DNA from: Anaerolineae bacterium
GTDB lineage: Bacteria > Chloroflexota > Anaerolineae > Aggregatilineales > Phototrophicaceae
Reading direction: 5' to 3'
Length of the DNA: 52,206 nt
Assembly: GCA_014879665.1 (NCBI GenBank)
Contig: JACSRP010000122.1
Span: 1-52,206, forward strand
Below the pieces are notes generated by a model that did not search any database, was not told where the DNA came from, and saw nothing but the letters and a program-made list of their open reading frames with translations. Shown piece after piece: positions 38,664 through 52,206 of this stretch. The translations under genes and the position numbers were made by a program. The first letter of the stretch is position 1. Every line of letters begins with the position of its first letter.

Positions 38664-41600
38664 ATGTTATTTCGCTGCTTAAAACTGCTCGTTGTCCTCA
38701 TTATCACCTTCATTCCCTTTGCAACTATTACGGCACAGGGCAGCAGTGTGTTCAATGGTGCTATCACCGATGCCGAATATTATTATGTGATTGACCTCCC
38801 GACGATTGCTGAAGGCTCAAGCATCACGGTTGATGCCCAAGCAGTCAGCGGCGATCTTGATGCAGTGATTGTCCTCTATTATGAGAATGGCATTTATGCA
38901 GCTGAAAGTGACGACCGCGCACCCGGAAACCCGAATCCATTTTTGACTTATGAGAACGCCCCCGCCGGTAATTACCGCGTGTTGATCTCACGATACGGTT
39001 TGGAACAAGGGGATACCAGCGGCGATTTCGCCGCCACAGTAGATATTAAACAGGGCAGTGGCGCAATCCTCTCCACTGTAACCCCGGAAACGCTGATTGA
39101 TTGGGAAGCAGCTGGCTACCCGAATAACACACCCGCTCCGATGGCGAAATGGACAATTCTGGCCTATTACGACGCCGACAACAATCTCGAATCCGGCATC
39201 ATGTACGACATGGATGAATTTGAGCGCGGCGGTGGCAGTACCGAGTCTGTTCGCATCCTCACGCTGCTAGATCGTGCCGTAGACTTCGACACCTCGAATG
39301 GCAATTGGACGGATGCGCGGGTCTACGAAGTCGGCGCGGATAAGTCTAATGATGTCATCACCACCTACCCGCCAACGTTAGATTCTGACCCGCTGGCGTA
39401 TCTCGGCGAAATTGACATGGGCGACGAAGTGAATCTGTTGAATTTCCTGGTGTGGGGCATGACCATGTACCCCGCCGAACGCTATGCCATTTCACTGAAT
39501 AACCACGGCGGCGCATGGGCTGGCACGGCATGGGATGACTCGTCTTCTGTGCATAACAATCTGACGGTTCCAGAAATGGCCGCCGTTTTCAACCGCGCGC
39601 TTCAGGAAGTGGGGCGCAGCCGCTTTGACCTGCTGATCAATGACTCATGCCTGATGAGCAGCATGGAGAATTTCGCGGGCATTTCCTCCTATTTCGATTA
39701 CGCTTTTAGCTCGCCAGAGATCATGAACAATCCCGGTTTCAACATGACCACGCTGGTAGAAACCTTGAATCAGCAGCCTGAGATCGAAATTCCGGTATTG
39801 GGCCAAATTGTTGCAGATCGTTACATGCAGGACATGAATACCAGCATGCCCGGCATGGCGACATACATGGGCGTGGGCATTACTAACCTGCGCGAATTTC
39901 CAAATCTGGTTAACGCACTCAACACCTTCACCGCAGTGATTGACACCAAGCCAGAGAGTTATACCGCGCTGCTTGGCCGGGTACGTGCTAACACCTATAC
40001 CTACTCCACATGGGCAGGCAGCAACGACAGCGTTGACGTTGGTAATTTTATGGGGCGCATCGTCTCATCAACCGCAGACAGCGAGGTACGCGCAGCAGCC
40101 CAAAACGTGCTGGACTCCCTGAATTCGGCACTGGTGTACAGCACAGCGGGCGATTTACTGGCGCAGGAAACCAGCTTTTACAATATTTTCTTTCCGCAAG
40201 GGAGCGAGAATTTCAACCCGCGCTATTTGCAGCAGTCCCCGCTGGCTGGCTGGCGCGATATGCTGCGCGCGTATTTCAGCAGTTTGAACAGCGAAGATGG
40301 CTCTTTCGGGTTTGACGTGCTGAATACCGCGCCGCAGGTCAATATTGCCAACCTGTTCCCGTCTGTCACCAGCATTCAAGCGCCTGTCACAATTTCGATG
40401 GAAGTGGTTGGTAATAATATTTCGCATGGCGATTTCACAGTTGACCAGATTCAAGCTGACGGCTCGCTGGTACGCCTGACCCAACGCCGCATCGTCACGG
40501 AAAATGTGTTGAGCGATGGCCGTGTCGAATATATCAACTTCTGGCACCCGGGCGTAGATGATTTCGATTTCACATGGTCAACACAAATCCCGTTCGTCAG
40601 CGACGGAAGCAGCGAAAACCCGGAGATGGTGGTCAGCGCTGGCGAAGTTTCATCGCTATCGGGCATTTACCAGTATCCCGGAAATAATCAGACCATTGAT
40701 GTTGACGTGATCTTTGACAACAGCGGCGCATTCAGCACCATGATCGCACGGCAGCGCGATACATCAGGCTTTGCCACCATTCGCCCGGAAGTAGGCGGCA
40801 TCTTTCAGTCTTATCGCTCATCGGTCAGCACCAGCGGTGAATCGATTACAGAAATGGGCAATGCCTATGTTTGGCCGGAAGCCGGGCTTACATGGGTCAA
40901 CCGCCCGGCTCCCACTGGCCGCTACAATCTCGGATTCCTCGTACAAGGCTTCGATGGCAGCATAGGCTTTAATTCGACGGCGGTTTCAGTTAACCACGAC
41001 GGCCTTGACCTTTCGCTTCAGGGCTACGTAGACGACGAATGGGGCTTCATCCTACGCTATCCAGCAGATTGGTCAGGTATTATTTACTATCCGGATCAAG
41101 GCTGGGAAAGCGCCAATGATCCAACCGGCCAGCAGTACGCATATATATATCCGGTGTCGCCATCTTCAAGTGATCCGGTGGTGATCGCGCAGGAAGCCAT
41201 GGCGCAGTACGACGTAGACGTTAACCTTGCCAGCTTGCAGCCGATTGCGGTAAGCGGGCGCGTCGGAGTGAGCTTCACTTATGAATGGGCGACGGGCAGC
41301 GCAATTTTCAACGGGCATGCTTTCGCCTACTATGAGCCGTCGCTGGAGCTGGGCTTTGTGATCGCCGCGGAAACAACTGACGGCAGCGACCCGACCCCTA
41401 TATTCGAGATTCTACGCGATGGGATTACGTTCTTCGATCCGGTAGAGCTTAGCACACACGATGCCGGAAAATGGACCTATGACACCCATAACGACAATGC
41501 CAGCTTCCCGATTCTAGAAGACTGGGCGCCGGGTTATATGGCTGATGATTGGTCAATCTATTATGAAGATGGCATTCAAGGGCGCGGCACCTATATCGCC

Positions 41601-41900
41601 ATCACCGAGCGCCCGGCCACCAGCACCAGCGACATCCTTGGCGATTTGATGGTGGAATATTTTGGCAATGACCCGACGATTCAGACAGAACGGCAGAACA
41701 CCTACTACGGCGAAGAAAATACATGGGACTATGTCATCTTCCACGGGCAGGACGAAAATGGCGCACTGATAACCGGCGGCATTTACGCCACGATGAAGAA
41801 TGGCAACGCCTACGTCGTCTGGTTCCAAGCGCCAGACAGCGCCATTTCGCAGTTAGCCAACGCCTTCTTTGTGTCGATTGACGGCTTCACGATTGAATAG
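38664..41900 (+). CDS. Secreted clostripain-family (C11) cysteine protease
   Basis: A 1078-residue exported protein. Signal peptide 1-25 (cleaved near TAQ-G). Residues about 28-130 are a PPC-like domain ('YYYVIDLPTIAEGSSITVDAQAVSGDLDAVI'). The C11 catalytic domain covers about 160-500: 'WTILAYYDADNNLE' opens it, His281 is in NNHGGAW and Cys329 in NDSCLMSSMEN. The rest, to 1078, holds beta-rich regions I do not recognise, with a repeated 'RYPADW...YYPDQGW' and 'DDWSIYYEDG' theme in the last 240 residues. C11 proteases cut after Arg or Lys and often self-process; the target is unknown. GGAG lies 9 bases before the ATG. Confidence 0.88.
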   Translation: MLFRCLKLLVVLIITFIPFATITAQGSSVFNGAITDAEYYYVIDLPTIAEGSSITVDAQAVSGDLDAVIVLYYENGIYAAESDDRAPGNPNPFLTYENAPAGNYRVLISRYGLEQGDTSGDFAATVDIKQGSGAILSTVTPETLIDWEAAGYPNNTPAPMAKWTILAYYDADNNLESGIMYDMDEFERGGGSTESVRILTLLDRAVDFDTSNGNWTDARVYEVGADKSNDVITTYPPTLDSDPLAYLGEIDMGDEVNLLNFLVWGMTMYPAERYAISLNNHGGAWAGTAWDDSSSVHNNLTVPEMAAVFNRALQEVGRSRFDLLINDSCLMSSMENFAGISSYFDYAFSSPEIMNNPGFNMTTLVETLNQQPEIEIPVLGQIVADRYMQDMNTSMPGMATYMGVGITNLREFPNLVNALNTFTAVIDTKPESYTALLGRVRANTYTYSTWAGSNDSVDVGNFMGRIVSSTADSEVRAAAQNVLDSLNSALVYSTAGDLLAQETSFYNIFFPQGSENFNPRYLQQSPLAGWRDMLRAYFSSLNSEDGSFGFDVLNTAPQVNIANLFPSVTSIQAPVTISMEVVGNNISHGDFTVDQIQADGSLVRLTQRRIVTENVLSDGRVEYINFWHPGVDDFDFTWSTQIPFVSDGSSENPEMVVSAGEVSSLSGIYQYPGNNQTIDVDVIFDNSGAFSTMIARQRDTSGFATIRPEVGGIFQSYRSSVSTSGESITEMGNAYVWPEAGLTWVNRPAPTGRYNLGFLVQGFDGSIGFNSTAVSVNHDGLDLSLQGYVDDEWGFILRYPADWSGIIYYPDQGWESANDPTGQQYAYIYPVSPSSSDPVVIAQEAMAQYDVDVNLASLQPIAVSGRVGVSFTYEWATGSAIFNGHAFAYYEPSLELGFVIAAETTDGSDPTPIFEILRDGITFFDPVELSTHDAGKWTYDTHNDNASFPILEDWAPGYMADDWSIYYEDGIQGRGTYIAITERPATSTSDILGDLMVEYFGNDPTIQTERQNTYYGEENTWDYVIFHGQDENGALITGGIYATMKNGNAYVVWFQAPDSAISQLANAFFVSIDGFTIE

Positions 41901-45523: not shown

Positions 45524-48190
45524 ATGGCAGCCAGTGAACAAGTGCCGCGCATTATTGGGCGGCGTTATCAAGTTATCCGCGAAATTGGCGCGGGCAATAT
45601 GGGCGCGGTCTTTGAAGCAGTAGATCGGCTTAATGGGCAATATGTGGCGGTCAAGCAGATGCGGTTTTCGGCAGATCAGCTTGAGTATGGCTCGCACTCG
45701 AACGCCGACGACGATCTGAATGTCGCGCTGGCGCAGGAATTTCGCATTCTCGCCTCACTGCGGCATCCCAATATCATCAGCGTGCTAGATTACGGCTTCG
45801 ACCTTGTAGACGGCGTGCACACACCCTATATCACGATGGAACTACTGCAAAATGCAGATTCATTTCTTGAGTATGGTATTGGGCTGAGGCATGATGAAAA
45901 AGTTGATCTTCTGGTCAAAATGCTTCAGGCGCTGATGTATTTGCACCGCCGGGGCATATTACACCGCGATTTGAAGCCTAAAAATGTTCTCGTTGACAAG
46001 AAGGTCGTAAAAGTGCTGGATTTTGGCCTTTCAATTCCGGGCGAACAGGCTAAAGAAGGGGAAGTTGCCGGAACACCAAGTTATATGGCGCCGGAATTAT
46101 GGGTTGGTGGCCGCCCCAGCCGTGAATCCGATTTATTTGCTGTTGGGATCATGGCCTTTCGGCTGTTTGCGGGCGCAGCGCCATTTGAAACCGCCAACCT
46201 CAAACAGCTTTTTGTGGAAGTACGCAACAAAACACCAGACTTCAGCTTGATGGAAACCAACGACTCTATACGGCAGATCACGGCGAAACTACTGGCAAAA
46301 GACCCGGCAGAACGCTACTCTGACGCGCATGAAGTGGCTATACAACTGCTGAGCGCAATCGGCCATGCCACGCCATTAGAATCCACGGCCACCCGCGAGA
46401 GTTTCCTGCAGGCGGCGACCTTTGTCGGGCGCGAACATGAATTTGGTTTTCTGAGCAGTATGCTTCAACGCTCAGTGGAAGGGCAAGGCAACGGGCTGCT
46501 GATTGCAGGGGAAAGCGGCGTTGGCAAGTCGCGGTTGGTTGAGGAATTACGTACGCTGGCGCTGGTACAGGGCGCTCTGGTGCTGCGGGGTCAGGCGATT
46601 GACAATATCACCGCCCCATACACGCTGTGGCGCGGCGCGGCACGCTGGTTGGCACTGCTGGGTAATTTGAACGAGCAGCAGGCATCTATCCTTAAACCAT
46701 TGGTACCAGACATTGAACGCCTGTTAAGGTATTCCGTAGCGGATGCGCCGGAAGTCTCTCCACAGGAGACACAATCACGCCTATTCCGATTGATAGAGCA
46801 GCTTTTCTACGCACAAACACAGCGACAACCGGTGGTCGTCATCCTTGAAGACCTCCAATGGGCAGACGGCGAAAGTATGTCACTGCTAGCGCATTTGAGC
46901 CGCGCGATTGCAAATATGCCCATAATGATTGTGGCAAGTTATCGTGATGACGAAATGCCGGAAGTGCCGCAATTACTGCCAGAAATGGAGGTGTTACGGC
47001 TGCACCGGCTGAATTCAAAGCAAACGGCTGAACTGACGCAGGCGATATTGGGGCCGCGCGGGGCTAACCCGGACTTGCTCGATTTGCTACAGCGCGAAAC
47101 TGAGGGTAATACCTTCTTCCTCGTCGAAATGGTGCGGGCACTAGCCGAAGAAGCGGGGCAGCTTTCCGCAGTAGGCGATGCCCCGCTTCCCATCTCGGTG
47201 CTGACCGGCGGCGTTCAGGGTATTGTACAGCGCCGACTGAACCGCATTCCCGAAACAGCGCGCCCCCTGCTGCAATGGGCAGCAGTCGGTGGCAGGCAGC
47301 TAGATATGGCAGTACTCCGCCATATCTTCGCCGCAAAAGCGCCGCAAATTGACCGCTGGCTGAACGAATGCGCTGACGCCGCCGTATTAGAAGTTGAGGA
47401 TGGGCAATGGCGGTTTGCCCATAACAAGCTGCGCGATGGCGCGCTGGACGAGTTGGATAGCGATACTTTTAGGCGCCTTAGCCATGAAACTGCAATCGCC
47501 GTTGAAATCGTATATGAAGTTTCCACCCGGCAAAACGCCGAACTTCTAGCTTATTACTGGGGCAGCGCCGGCAATCTTGAAAAGGAAGAGCAATATTCAG
47601 CCCTTGCTGGAGAGCAGGCGCTTAAGAACGGTGCTTATCGCGCGGCAGCCGCATATTTGAAGCGCACGTTGGATTTACACTCGCAAATTGAAACTTCGAG
47701 GCGTAAAACCGCGCAAGTTCTTCAGCAGCTTGGCGATGCCTATCGCGGCATGAATGATGCTGAAATGGCACAGGATTATTACCGGCAAAGCCTCGATATT
47801 TGTCGGGAGATTGATTACCGCTGGGGGCTTGCCGCCTGCTTAAACAAGCTGGGCGAAATATCCGTTGAGCGCGGCTTAAACGCCGCTGCTGCGCAGCAGT
47901 TGAACGAGGCGCTGCGTATCGCAACGGAAGCGCGCGCGCAACCTGTCGCCCTGCGTTCGCTGGTCGCCATCGCGGGGCTGAACGTGGGAACCGGGCAACC
48001 TGCGCTGGCGGTACAATATGCCACAGTTGCGCTTAATCATCTTTCAAGCGATGGGCAAACGCATTATCTGGCAGAACGATTGATTAACAGCCTGCAAGAC
48101 AGCCTACCACCTGATGTGATGAAAGCGGCTGTAGAACGCGGCAATACGCTTGAATTCAAGGAATTGGTGAATCAGATCATCCCGGCATAG
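45524..48190 (+). CDS. Ser/Thr protein kinase fused to AAA ATPase and TPR domains
   Basis: An 888-residue cytoplasmic signalling protein. The kinase domain covers about 14-275: Gly loop GAGNMG (22-27), Lys44 in VAVK, HRDLKPKN with Asp149, DFG at 166-168, and APE at 189-191, all intact. An ATPase domain of the LuxR-LAL/STAND type follows at about 300-620, with Walker A GESGVGKS (329-336) and Walker B 'VVVILEDLQWAD'. Residues about 690-880 are TPR-like helices. No membrane segment and no DNA-binding domain. An ABC ATPase gene starts 2 bases after the stop. AAGGA lies just upstream of the ATG. Confidence 0.9.
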   Translation: MAASEQVPRIIGRRYQVIREIGAGNMGAVFEAVDRLNGQYVAVKQMRFSADQLEYGSHSNADDDLNVALAQEFRILASLRHPNIISVLDYGFDLVDGVHTPYITMELLQNADSFLEYGIGLRHDEKVDLLVKMLQALMYLHRRGILHRDLKPKNVLVDKKVVKVLDFGLSIPGEQAKEGEVAGTPSYMAPELWVGGRPSRESDLFAVGIMAFRLFAGAAPFETANLKQLFVEVRNKTPDFSLMETNDSIRQITAKLLAKDPAERYSDAHEVAIQLLSAIGHATPLESTATRESFLQAATFVGREHEFGFLSSMLQRSVEGQGNGLLIAGESGVGKSRLVEELRTLALVQGALVLRGQAIDNITAPYTLWRGAARWLALLGNLNEQQASILKPLVPDIERLLRYSVADAPEVSPQETQSRLFRLIEQLFYAQTQRQPVVVILEDLQWADGESMSLLAHLSRAIANMPIMIVASYRDDEMPEVPQLLPEMEVLRLHRLNSKQTAELTQAILGPRGANPDLLDLLQRETEGNTFFLVEMVRALAEEAGQLSAVGDAPLPISVLTGGVQGIVQRRLNRIPETARPLLQWAAVGGRQLDMAVLRHIFAAKAPQIDRWLNECADAAVLEVEDGQWRFAHNKLRDGALDELDSDTFRRLSHETAIAVEIVYEVSTRQNAELLAYYWGSAGNLEKEEQYSALAGEQALKNGAYRAAAAYLKRTLDLHSQIETSRRKTAQVLQQLGDAYRGMNDAEMAQDYYRQSLDICREIDYRWGLAACLNKLGEISVERGLNAAAAQQLNEALRIATEARAQPVALRSLVAIAGLNVGTGQPALAVQYATVALNHLSSDGQTHYLAERLINSLQDSLPPDVMKAAVERGNTLEFKELVNQIIPA

Positions 48191-48192
48191 CC

Positions 48193-49284
48193 ATGACTAC
48201 GGTAACACTGACCCATGTTTCAAAGCAGCTTGGAGGAACCGGCTCAAATGCGCAGCCGATTCAGGCGGTTGACAACCTCTCACTGAAGATCAGTTCCGGT
48301 GAAGTCGTCGCCCTCGTTGGCCCGTCAGGCTGCGGCAAATCCACCTTACTGCGGCTGATTGCCGGGTTGATTGAGCCAGACAACGGGCAGATTTTATATG
48401 ATAACGTGCCGCTTACCGATATTCCGCTGAACGAGCGCGGTATAGGCATGGTATTTCAAGAAGGCGCGCTAGTGCCCCACTGGGAAGCCGAACAATCTAT
48501 CGGTTTCTTTTATCGCCTGCGCCATCGGGAACAGGAAGTACCGCCGCGCGTAGAAGAAATTTCAAAAATCACTGGTTTCGGGTTAGAAAAACTGTTAAGC
48601 CGCAAGCCGGGCCAGCTTTCTGGCGGCGAGAAACAGCGCATTGCTATCGCGCGGGCGCTAACCCGTGACCCGCGTATCTTCCTCTTTGACGAGCCGTTTT
48701 CAAGTCTGGATGCAAAGTTACGCGGGCAAGCGCGGGTAGAACTTAAGCGCCTGCTCAATGCCTTTCCGGTGACATCAGTTTATGTTACTCACGATCAGAT
48801 TGAAGCCGTAGCTTTAGGAAAGCGGGTCGCGGTCATGCGCGCGGGAAAAATCGAGCAAATCGGGAACTACCAGACGCTGTATCACAACCCGATCAATCTG
48901 TTCGTCGCCACCTTCATCGGCACGCCAGCGATTAATCTCTTTGAAGGCCGCGCCATTGATGGCCACTGGCAAGGCGCCCATTTCGGCGGCTTCCCCATGC
49001 GCAGCGATCTCGAAAATCAGAAAAAAGTGATACTAGGAATACGCCCTGAGTTCGTCAGGCTGGTCACTGAAGATAGCGTTGGCGCGGCGGCGGCGCTGGT
49101 GAGCAAAGTCACGTCTTATTATGCCGAGCGCTTTCAGCTTATTGAAGTGAGTGCAAATAAAGAGCGATGGCTGCTAAAAGCAGAATCTGATACTCAAGTT
49201 ACCGCTGGCGAGACGGTATGGTGCGCCTTTGATCCTGAAGGCATCTTCTATTTTGATCCCTTCACCGAACAACGGATCGGGTAA
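48193..49284 (+). CDS. ABC importer ATPase, sugar/polyamine (MalK/PotA) type
   Basis: A 363-residue ATP-binding subunit. It has Walker A GPSGCGKST, the Q-loop FQEGALVP, LSGGEKQR, Walker B LFDEPFSSLD and the H-loop VTHDQ, then a C-terminal TOBE-like regulatory domain (about 240-363). All ATPase residues are intact. No permease or binding-protein gene is next to it, so it must serve a transporter encoded elsewhere. It lies 2 bases after the kinase gene, which suggests coupled translation. Confidence 0.9.
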   Translation: MTTVTLTHVSKQLGGTGSNAQPIQAVDNLSLKISSGEVVALVGPSGCGKSTLLRLIAGLIEPDNGQILYDNVPLTDIPLNERGIGMVFQEGALVPHWEAEQSIGFFYRLRHREQEVPPRVEEISKITGFGLEKLLSRKPGQLSGGEKQRIAIARALTRDPRIFLFDEPFSSLDAKLRGQARVELKRLLNAFPVTSVYVTHDQIEAVALGKRVAVMRAGKIEQIGNYQTLYHNPINLFVATFIGTPAINLFEGRAIDGHWQGAHFGGFPMRSDLENQKKVILGIRPEFVRLVTEDSVGAAAALVSKVTSYYAERFQLIEVSANKERWLLKAESDTQVTAGETVWCAFDPEGIFYFDPFTEQRIG

Positions 49285-49345: not shown

Positions 49346-50821
49346 TCAATTAGAATCACCCAGATTCGGCGGGAACAATCTCATTGCGGGGATAGACGGA
49401 ATCTGTATGACATACAACCAGTCCCGCTTGAACTTCTCCAGATTTCGACCACTGATCGCTTCGGCTATGGCAAAGAAATCATCGGTGGTGGCATTGCCGT
49501 AGGTATACTGCCCGGCATAGGTTCGCAGTATTTCGAAGAACGCATCATCGCCAACTACCAACCGCAGCGCGTGCAGCGTAAGCCCACCCCGATAATAAAC
49601 CGCAGCGTTGAACAGGTTATCAGGGTCGGGAGAGCCAGTTAAGCCCATAGACATCAGTTCCGCCCGGATTTGCGCGTTTGTGAGGCCAAATTCCTGCCAT
49701 CCGTCACCACTCATAAAACCATAAGCTTCCGCAATTGCGGCATCGCGCGCATCGGGGCCTTCGGTATGTTCCAGCCACAACCATTCGGCATAGCTGGCAA
49801 AACCCTCGTTCAACCAGATATCTGACCAATCTTCCAGCGAAATACTGTTACCGAACCACTGGTGCGCCAACTCATGAGCCACAACGTCATCGGCATCGCC
49901 CATCAAAATGCTGCTGCCAAACAACGATATAGTCTGGGTTTCCAGCGCAAAGCCCAGCGGTTGATCCACCACCACCGCGCCATAGGCATCAAATGGGTAT
50001 GGCCCGAAAATGTTGGAGAAATAATCTACCATTTCGCCCTGCCGCCCAAATACACGGTCATTGAAGCGGCTGTAGCGTTCCGGTAGATAATTTCGCAGCG
50101 GAACGCCCTCTGCCGATTCACTCTCAAATTCGACATAGCGATCAATATTCACGGTCGCCAGATAAGTTGCCATCGGCTGGCGCATCTCCCAGCGGAATGT
50201 GGTCTGGCCGTCCTGAGTAGTGGTCTCTTCCAACACGCCGTTGGCCGCCACGACGAAACCTTCGGGTACGGTAATTTCCAGCGTAAAGGTCGCCTTATCA
50301 GACGGATGATCGTTCGCCGGAAACCACGTTTGCGCGCCGTCTGGCTCGCTAACCACATATACCAACCCATCCGCAAAATTCCAGCCGAGTCTAGCCCCTA
50401 AGCTAGGATCCTGCGTTGGCGTAGGCATGCCGTGATACTGGATTACCACTTCGAAGCTGTCGCCTGCTGAAAGCGGCTGAGGCAGCAGAATCATCAATTC
50501 GGAGCCAGAGCGCGAAAATTCTGCCGATTCGCCATTCACCGTCAGGTTGTCAATGTTGAGGCTTACAAGGTCTAGATTGAACTGTTCCAGATCGGCAGTT
50601 GCCACCGCGGTGATGATCGCTTCAGCAGTGATAGCGTTTTCATCCATCGGGGTTTGCAAGCGAATAGTGTAATGCTGCACATCAAAGCCGCTGCTGCCCA
50701 GTTCCGGGTACAGCGAATCGCCTGCGCTTGAAAGATCAAGCTGGCCGTCTTGCGCAGCGGCGGAAAAGGCCGCTAAGAGACAGGCGGTTATAAGTAGAGA
50801 GAAAATCCGTTGGAGATTCAT
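49346..50821 (-). CDS. Secreted M1-family metallopeptidase
   Basis: A 491-residue exported zinc aminopeptidase-like protein. Signal peptide 1-23 (cleaved near AAAQ). The N-terminal beta domain (about 45-230) precedes the gluzincin domain. HELAH gives His316, Glu317 and His320, Glu339 (NEGFAS) is the third ligand, and a Tyr lies in VYYRGG. The exopeptidase GxMEN motif is replaced by FALETQT (291-297), as in a subgroup of bacterial M1 enzymes. It lacks the large C-terminal helical domain of full-length members, so 491 residues is short but usual for this subgroup. AAGGA lies just upstream of the ATG. Confidence 0.9.
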   Translation of the reverse strand: MNLQRIFSLLITACLLAAFSAAAQDGQLDLSSAGDSLYPELGSSGFDVQHYTIRLQTPMDENAITAEAIITAVATADLEQFNLDLVSLNIDNLTVNGESAEFSRSGSELMILLPQPLSAGDSFEVVIQYHGMPTPTQDPSLGARLGWNFADGLVYVVSEPDGAQTWFPANDHPSDKATFTLEITVPEGFVVAANGVLEETTTQDGQTTFRWEMRQPMATYLATVNIDRYVEFESESAEGVPLRNYLPERYSRFNDRVFGRQGEMVDYFSNIFGPYPFDAYGAVVVDQPLGFALETQTISLFGSSILMGDADDVVAHELAHQWFGNSISLEDWSDIWLNEGFASYAEWLWLEHTEGPDARDAAIAEAYGFMSGDGWQEFGLTNAQIRAELMSMGLTGSPDPDNLFNAAVYYRGGLTLHALRLVVGDDAFFEILRTYAGQYTYGNATTDDFFAIAEAISGRNLEKFKRDWLYVIQIPSIPAMRLFPPNLGDSN

Positions 50822-51024: not shown

Positions 51025-52206
51025 ATGCAAGTCTTCAAAATTATCGCTGTGCTATTCTCACTGCTATGCATCGCCGGGCAGATTAGCGCGCAGACAGCCG
51101 AGATTATCGCCCCCAACGTGTTCTTGCAGGGCATGGTGCTGACCACCGGCGTGCGCTATACCGCAACCTTCATTAAACCTGAAGAAGCTTTACCACTGCG
51201 GAATATCAGTGTAGAAATCACATTGCCCCCGGGCGCACAATTCAGCCAGATGCTGGTGCCACAGCAGGTCGAATTTGATGTAGTGCGCGTCAGCCGTGAG
51301 GGCGCAATCACCATGATCTGGCAAACTTCACGCGTTCCCGGCGAAAACACACTCGATTCCTATTCCTTCACGCTGGCGCAGCCTTTGACCGAAGAGACTG
51401 AATTTTATATTCAATGGCAGGATGAAAACGGCACACAGTATTTTGAGAATTTCTTTGAGCTTCCACCATTAGCCATCGCCACGCAGAATACCGGCATCGC
51501 CACGCTTTCACAGCAGGGGTTTGTTCCCGCAGGTGAAACCGGAGTACAGGTTTCCATCCCTCAGCAAGCGGAGCCAGTCACTTTAACTGTGAACATACTG
51601 CCAGCAGGTGTTAATCCGCCGCCGGAATACGGCGATCTGTGGTGGTGTTCGCTGGTCGAAATCACAGGCTTGCCAGAAGGCGTGAGCGCCAGCGTAATTG
51701 TTCCCCTGCGCCGCCCAGTTGCGCCATTTACGCCATTAAGTATGTTCCAGCAAAATGATGACGGCAGTTGGTCGCCACTAGAAGGCGAGGCGTTTGTCAC
51801 CGCAGACGGGCAGTATGTGGTTTATGAACATCCGGGTGGCGTGGTGGCGACGGGCGGATTGCCGGAAATTCAGCCGGAAATCATCGCCGCCACAAATATT
51901 CAGGTGATCACCGATGCAGGGTTAGCCGCGCCAGCGAATGCAGCCCCCGATCTCACTAACATCACCGACGGGACCAGCAACACAGTTTTGCTGAATGAAA
52001 TTCCAGTTTTGCCGCCACCTGAAAATATCACAGATGGGACAAGTAACACTGTCATGCTCGGCGAGCTGCCCCTGACTGCCACGCCGATCCCCCTGACTGC
52101 CACGCCGGTAATCAATACGATAAACGACGGCAGCAGTAATACCGTCTTGCTTGGCGAGCCGTCGCTGACCGCCACGCCCATCCTTCCGACTGCCACGCCG
52201 ATAATC
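51025..52206 (+). CDS. Secreted protein with tandem DGTSNT motifs (3' end outside the window)
   Basis: The frame is open from ATG 51025 to the window edge (394 codons). GGTGGAG (51009-51015) is 9 bases upstream. A signal peptide covers about residues 1-22 (ends near ISAQ-T). Residues 25-280 are beta-rich, with no family recognised. From residue 313 on come three copies of a 13-residue motif, ITDGTSNTVLL(N/G)E, split by Thr/Pro linkers (LTATPI). The motif is like the 'DGTSNT...GE' end motif of Planctomycete-type DUF1559 pilin-like proteins. That likeness is from memory, and a functional link is not claimed. Standard codon use for the window; the role is unknown. Confidence 0.75.
   Translation, partial: MQVFKIIAVLFSLLCIAGQISAQTAEIIAPNVFLQGMVLTTGVRYTATFIKPEEALPLRNISVEITLPPGAQFSQMLVPQQVEFDVVRVSREGAITMIWQTSRVPGENTLDSYSFTLAQPLTEETEFYIQWQDENGTQYFENFFELPPLAIATQNTGIATLSQQGFVPAGETGVQVSIPQQAEPVTLTVNILPAGVNPPPEYGDLWWCSLVEITGLPEGVSASVIVPLRRPVAPFTPLSMFQQNDDGSWSPLEGEAFVTADGQYVVYEHPGGVVATGGLPEIQPEIIAATNIQVITDAGLAAPANAAPDLTNITDGTSNTVLLNEIPVLPPPENITDGTSNTVMLGELPLTATPIPLTATPVINTINDGSSNTVLLGEPSLTATPILPTATPII
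51961..52158 (+). repeat. Three in-frame DGTSNT coding repeats
   Basis: Units at 51961-51999, 52027-52065 and 52120-52158 each code for I-(T/N)-D-G-(T/S)-S-N-T-V-(L/M)-L-(N/G)-E. Codons differ between copies (GACGGGACC, GATGGGACA, GACGGCAGC) while the peptide is kept. This shows selection on the protein rather than recent DNA duplication. Spacing is 66 and 93 bases. Further copies may follow outside the window. Confidence 0.85.

Follow-up and report, generated by a model that had tools for sequence, protein, structure and literature searches.

The window, as we call the whole analyzed stretch of 52,206 nucleotides (contig C183 of an Anaerolineae bacterium), ends inside an open reading frame on the + strand (51025-52206) that begins with ATG and runs for 394 codons with no stop before the contig end. 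The encoded protein consists of a head followed by an arm with three copies of a short peptide motif. Its secretion is weakly predicted, this and the signal cleavage having been judged by eye. The features of the gene are as follows:

51025..52206, + strand: gene for a putatively secreted head-plus-repeat-arm protein (OLB15 ortholog 78% identical; 17 of 154 genomes of the order have the head family)
51025..51093, + strand: probable Sec signal peptide MQVFKIIAVLFSLLCIAGQISAQ (cleavage point placed by eye; AF2 helix at residues 2-19, unstructured at 20-28)
51112..51474, + strand: head domain 1, predicted Ig-like beta sandwich, a type known from adhesins and Gram-positive pilins (residues ~30-150; AF2 pLDDT ~90)
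51484..51915, + strand: head domain 2, predicted beta-rich (residues ~154-297; alignment of homologs and AF2)
51961..51999, + strand: motif copy 1, ITDGTSNTVLLNE (residues 313-325)
52000..52026, + strand: linker 1, IPVLPPPEN
52027..52065, + strand: motif copy 2, ITDGTSNTVMLGE (residues 335-347)
52066..52119, + strand: linker 2, LPLTATPIPLTATPVINT
52120..52158, + strand: motif copy 3, INDGSSNTVLLGE (residues 366-378)
52159..52206, + strand: beginning of linker 3, PSLTATPILPTATPII, truncated where the contig stops

Each motif unit is 13 residues long and fits the pattern [IV]-x-D-G-[TS]-S-N-T-[IV]-x-x-x-E, with the D residues at positions 315, 337, and 368 of the protein and an irregular spacing of 22, then 31 residues. 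The original prediction of three 13-residue copies written in different codons holds, but the copies are similar and not, as it had stated, identical in peptide: taken together, the three pairs differ at 25 of 26.7 synonymous but just 11 of 90 nonsynonymous sites (pN/pS 0.13). Its TATP linkers are found in linker 2 and in the last segment but not in linker 1, and its repeated module at the protein end does lie on Pro/Thr-rich linkers after a beta-rich head. A single DGxSNT arose in just 9 of 20,000 shuffles of the window tail, a reversed control pattern gave 0 matches in every genome scan, and elsewhere in the 3.85-Mb source genome the motif pattern occurs only at the end of contig C264. TRF at score 30 detected no DNA-level tandem repeat in this region of the window.

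The motif gene adjoins a divergently transcribed gene for a secreted-looking M1 aminopeptidase (49346-50821). Elsewhere in the window an 888-residue Ser/Thr kinase fused to an AAA ATPase and TPRs is encoded at 45524-48190, with an ABC transporter ATPase gene immediately downstream (48193-49284), and a 1078-residue clostripain-type (C11) peptidase with a weak match to the pre-peptidase C-terminal domain is encoded at 38664-41900.

Contig C264 (L003, - strand, 9936-9568) very probably holds the rest of the motif gene, across a join that is itself not sequenced. This is supported by the last 10 bases of the window (gccgataatc), which are the first 10 of C264 on its - strand, and by the C-terminus and downstream overlap that the C264 part shares with a complete ortholog. 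The C264 part encodes one more copy (INDGSSNTVLLGE) and a 122-residue tail to the stop, with a Pro/Thr-rich stretch and then the conserved C-terminus ...PRIEIHTQLSFAPVQCQIGRINCVLLLRRIGGGFR, a segment with two Cys. Inspection beyond position 52206, as had been proposed for counting the copies, thus raises the array of the source genome to at least four, and further copies may have been collapsed by the assembler. The region of copy 3 and that of the C264 copy are 96% identical over 78 bp and appear to be recent duplicates. The complete ortholog is found in Chloroflexi bacterium OLB15 (G010, L009/L054; contig LMZS01000072.1; 78% identity, E 6e-190) and has 492 residues, four copies and part of a fifth (ITDGTSN), and a C-terminus like that of the C264 part, ending in ...QCQTGRINCVLLIRRVGGGFR without LPXTG or a hydrophobic anchor. 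In both C264 and OLB15 a convergent phosphoenolpyruvate carboxylase gene, named from sequence and not by profile search, lies downstream with a 4-bp overlap of the gene ends.

The beta-rich domain that had been read from the sequence ahead of the copies is also seen in the AF2 model of the window head (seven sequences; mean pLDDT 86, pTM 0.79). In a VIA search the best match to head domain 1 is the N-terminal domain of Candida Als3 (Z 10.8, rmsd 2.3 Å, 111 aligned residues), alongside pilin Ig domains (Mfa5, PitA, and BcpA; Z 9.6-10.7) and other Ig-like folds such as AP2 mu and alpha-2-macroglobulin. The modeled likeness is one of fold only, and with a fold so widespread it would be weak evidence of kinship. 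Searching VIA with the full-length protein repeats the domain 1 matches and adds nothing further, and a sequence search of solved structures gave a meaningless match (E 0.014) outside the tail and none for the motif. Head domain 2 is marked in the alignment by the invariant elements NPP...WWCSL, VPLRRP-like, and ADG...Y.H.GG.

The head family is present in 17 of the 154 genomes of the order and in 5 of 396 sampled from the class, all five of which belong to this order. Motif arrays follow the head in G000, G010, G089 (at least five copies), G090 (at least five), G070 (at least two), and L095 (eight), the last having by eye a lipobox-like ISAC where the window protein has its signal peptide. 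The G066 protein (L157) has a single copy near its C-terminus. Six heads carry motif-free tails (G009, G076, G147, G049, G054, and G059), several of them Cys- or Gly-rich, and the head therefore does not need the array. The G096 head has a Pro/Thr tail that runs to the contig end, and in G005 the contig ends first. Homologs of the window head (L100-L102 and L155) have Gly/Phe/Cys-rich tails (...FGGFGNMACGFSQFGTGFGGGFCQFNSCGFG...) replacing the motif arm, and by sequence these look like one head with swapped tails. The variety of tails on homologous heads implies that the head is older and the motif array an evolvable tail attached to it.

The consensus of 48 copies from 11 sequences is [IV]-x-D-G-[TS]-S-N-T-[IV]-phi-phi-G-E, with D0 and N4 invariant and S3 and E10 near-invariant. 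Conservation extends to positions outside the search pattern, namely G at +9 (40/48), E at +10 (45/48), [IV] at -2 (40/48), and a hydrophobic residue at +8. Between copies within a gene, pN/pS of the motif is 0.08-0.28 (five genes), and in the three genes for which the next 8 codons were measured it is 0.29-0.78 there vs. 0.08-0.24 in the motif. Gene conversion or recent duplication could lower the motif value, but pS of 0.35-0.94 makes a very recent origin unlikely for most copies. The motif is under protein-level constraint. Its surroundings differ sharply in composition, with Pro making up 0% of the motif vs. 23-38% of the linkers in Chloroflexota arms; the linkers are 7-24 residues long, and there is one motif per 20-31 residues. 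The period is regular at 25 residues in G090 and part of L095, and 27-28 in G089. On an aggregation scale, most aggregation-prone arm 5-mers of the relatives center on NTxxxG (9/11, 15/15, 20/21, 28/28, and 7/7) and those of the window arm do so in just 2 of 5 cases. A disordered arm is weakly predicted, as are strands at the motif: in the AF2 model of the full-length OLB15 protein (five sequences), residues 298-484 have pLDDT < 50 and the only four strands past residue 298 each fall on a motif copy (TILVN/TVVFS/TILVG/TILV). With pLDDT of ~25-35 these strands are suggestive at best, a hint and not a model.

The motif had been likened to the element near the end of DUF1559 proteins, and this likeness was confirmed: it aligns to positions ~156-177 of the PF07596 profile. 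The window protein and every tandem protein tested with Pfam score above the curated cut-off of that family, mainly as the sum of repeated short matches. Near profile position 160, most matches span 15-40 of the 268 positions, with longer ones of 60-75 in L061 and L090; in the window and OLB15 proteins there are three stretches each, the best of 15-21 positions. This constitutes an annotation trap, as repeated matches of ~20 residues cause non-pilin tandem-motif proteins to be miscalled DUF1559. We know of no established function for DUF1559 proteins. As controls we used three plasmid-borne Planctomycetes proteins (L143, L144, and L145); a Planctomycetota MAG that was also examined had no DUF1559. 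The core D-G-[TL]-S-N-T-x-x-x-x-E occurs exactly once in each of the three, in agreement with the predicted single occurrence. DUF1559 proteins begin with a prepilin-type sequence (...FTLIELLVV...) and match the profile throughout, whereas the window protein begins with a Sec-like signal, continues with an Ig-like head, and shares only the motif, in repeated form. The N-termini of the window and OLB15 proteins are Sec-like, with no Pfam or NCBIfam match to the prepilin N-terminus (N_methyl, FTLIELL), and 61 relatives yielded no convincing DUF1559 protein, just sub-cut-off fragments and the window protein's ortholog. A DUF1559 pilin identity was thus rejected on the missing prepilin N-terminus and partial profile. 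The searches turned up no curated family for the tandem copies: Pfam gives PF07596 alone and NCBIfam nothing for the window protein or its Chloroflexota relatives. Planctomycetales genomes encode dozens of DUF1559 proteins each, and are reported to hold at least 41 genes apiece with the prepilin motif, most of them also with the PF07596 domain (SBP_bac_10; PMC8567305).

The distribution of the motif is drawn from 1,640 look-ups of genomes and from a single scan in which ~85,000 species genomes were searched for a pair of DGxSNT-coding stretches; the scan undercounts because the first copy was required to use GAC. The scan returned 73 stretches, about eleven of which encode an in-frame tandem motif, nearly always with a GE end though the pattern did not demand it; many loci, being low-complexity DGSTNTDADGSTNT-type arrays, were left out. 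The tandem motif occurs in otherwise dissimilar secreted proteins of five phyla: Chloroflexota (L042, L054, and L095), Pseudomonadota (L048 Ca. Accumulibacter, L061 Stagnimonas, L072 Desertibaculum, L090 Novosphingobium, and L097 Aquabacterium), Acidobacteriota (L070), Bacteroidota (L058), and Cyanobacteriota (L084). It is hence not peculiar to the window protein, and the chance occurrence with no copies in relatives that the original prediction had allowed for is contradicted by the arrays that relatives carry. The arrays are nonetheless rare, being found in 4 of 154 genomes of the order and 1 of 400 in the phylum sample. The L048/L072/L132/L070 type comprises short proteins with a probable PEP-CTERM-type sorting signal at the end, with weak profile matches in the proteobacterial and Bryobacterales proteins only; for the OLB15 ortholog neither Pfam nor NCBIfam matched such a signal. 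A literature text search for DGTSNT, DGSSNT, and DGLSNT returned only papers unrelated by title. E-values are of little use for so short a motif, and the case rests on recurrence and constraint.

In the Lacihabitans protein (L058, 1783-3261) the motif lies within a repeat run, GGVAIGEEVIADGTSNTIAFGENVQVLG..., which resembles YadA-type beta-roll head repeats. A mobile or phage origin was dropped because tblastn with the tandem-motif segment of a proteobacterial protein found no match in 72,556 plasmid and 50,697 phage records. Tandem matches in IMG/VR were set apart as a different, curlin-like array without GE. These contigs (L135-L138 and L140-L142, e.g., L135 384-1082, - strand) encode a secreted-looking protein of ~233 residues with curlin-like strands (...LDINQIGDSNKF...VDVDGSSNTFTLDL...IQGSSNTFDFDI...) and no Pfam match above cut-off, possibly a phage-borne beta-solenoid.

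The account that we tentatively favor, which we hold to be possible though short of probable, is that each copy acts as a short beta-strand sticker on Pro/Thr-rich spacers and that the array lets the protein self-associate multivalently, either at the cell surface or within the matrix. The protein would be a Sec-secreted, non-pilin surface or matrix protein with an Ig-like adhesin-type head, a disordered Pro/Thr-rich arm, and a two-Cys C-terminal segment. Each copy would form a tight D-G-x-S-N turn followed by a strand N-T-[IV]-x-phi-G-E, whose residues would alternate, with N, I/V, phi, and E inward and the others outward. Stickers could then pair strand to strand, within one molecule or between neighbors, with the linkers as spacers, and several weak contacts might jointly retain the protein in the extracellular matrix or cross-link that matrix. 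This is suggested by the low motif pN/pS, the conservation beyond the search pattern, the Pro-free motifs with aggregation-prone NTxxxG, the OLB15 strands on the motifs, the likeness to the curlin kernel, the adhesin- or pilin-like fold of head domain 1, the predicted secretion, the variation in copy number, and the presence of the motif elsewhere in surface-type proteins (probable PEP-CTERM proteins L048/L131, L072, L132, and L070). Against it, the modeled arm strands have low confidence and DSSP labels do not tell pairing partners, the spacing and the E in place of Q are unlike curlin, stacked E/D would repel without a counter-ion, and the head occurs without any array.

The data are fitted almost as well by a multivalent docking peptide, a linear ligand for a groove of another surface protein in which tandem copies confer avidity in the manner of multi-site adaptor peptides, although we consider this somewhat unlikely. 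In its favor, the Pro-free unit is short and under strong constraint, it comes in 1 to 8 copies on linkers that are probably disordered and vary freely in length (7-24 residues), and the same peptide is found as a single copy both in DUF1559 proteins and at the C-terminus of the head protein L157. However, neither a receptor candidate nor any specific binding, anchoring, or docking partner was found, the gene neighbors (M1 peptidase and PEP carboxylase) are not obvious partners, and a conserved receptor would have to be as sporadic across distant phyla as the arrays themselves. The regular periods of G090, L095, and G089, the solenoid-like strand pattern of the motif, and the strand-rich-looking spacers of the PEP-CTERM versions (FDVCFRxV) would agree with a rigid rod, one beta-arch per copy stacked into a beta-solenoid or roll; this is improbable given the Pro content of the Chloroflexota linkers, the irregular window spacing, and the lack of a confident solenoid from AF2, albeit with five sequences only. 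The oxygens of D0, N4, S3, and E10 might instead make D-G-x-S-N-T ... E a Ca2+-binding loop and the array a calcium-responsive stalk, but known Ca2+ loop families in Pfam and NCBIfam gave no match, which leaves this very unlikely.

Functionless, slippage-type repeat expansion could account for the variable copy number, the recent duplication of copy 3, and the freely varying Pro/Thr linkers, and gene conversion could explain part of the low motif pN/pS. We give it little chance, as pN/pS lies well below 1 in five genes and below that of the adjacent linker codons where measured, and a near-identical motif recurs in unrelated proteins of five phyla. That the arrays are degenerate or relocated DUF1559 pilin domains is scarcely credible and already contradicted: the PF07596 score speaks for it, but the matches are short and repeated, the prepilin N-terminus is missing, and the 61 relatives offer no convincing source. 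A motif that is free of the pilin, tandem, constrained, and spread over five phyla points to a functional unit by itself. The broader proposal of a phylum-crossing, reusable sticker module, the solitary signature element of DUF1559 repeated in unrelated secreted proteins to yield extracellular adhesives with many stickers on disordered spacers, a new class of bacterial matrix cross-linker, is doubtful. If the copies do self-associate, they would give simple access to the function of the huge DUF1559 families and to the way in which Chloroflexota build their matrix. Members of this phylum are common in sludge flocs and granules (PMC9942424).

Among known systems, Ig-like adhesins and pilins (MSCRAMM, Mfa5, PitA, and BcpA) share the fold of domain 1 (Z ~10) and a long low-complexity arm, but LPXTG-anchored adhesins end in LPXTG and an anchor, and the complete OLB15 ortholog has neither. 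To our knowledge an array of motif peptides has not been described for them. The PEP-CTERM tandem proteins of Ca. Accumulibacter (L048/L131) and Desertibaculum (L072), and L132, are likewise secreted and carry four or five motif copies, but they lack the Ig-like head, their spacers are strand-like and Cys-bearing and not Pro/Thr-rich, and they have a C-terminal sorting signal that is absent from the Chloroflexota proteins.

The motif itself also resembles the repeats of curlin (CsgA/CsgB), the kernel of which is N-$-psi-$-psi-$-Q (PMC10192328). Pfam gave no curlin match for the window and OLB15 proteins, only PF07596 at E <= 10, though HMMER filters may hide weak matches. Following a Gly-containing D-G-x-S arc, the motif N-x-phi-x-phi-x-E differs from the kernel in its last residue alone: N, psi, and psi are kept in the 48 copies, whereas the terminal residue is E in 45 of 48 and never Q. 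Curlin lacks the Ig-like head of the window protein and has two kernels per contiguous repeat of ~23 residues, whereas window-type arms carry one per 20-31 residues on Pro-rich spacers.
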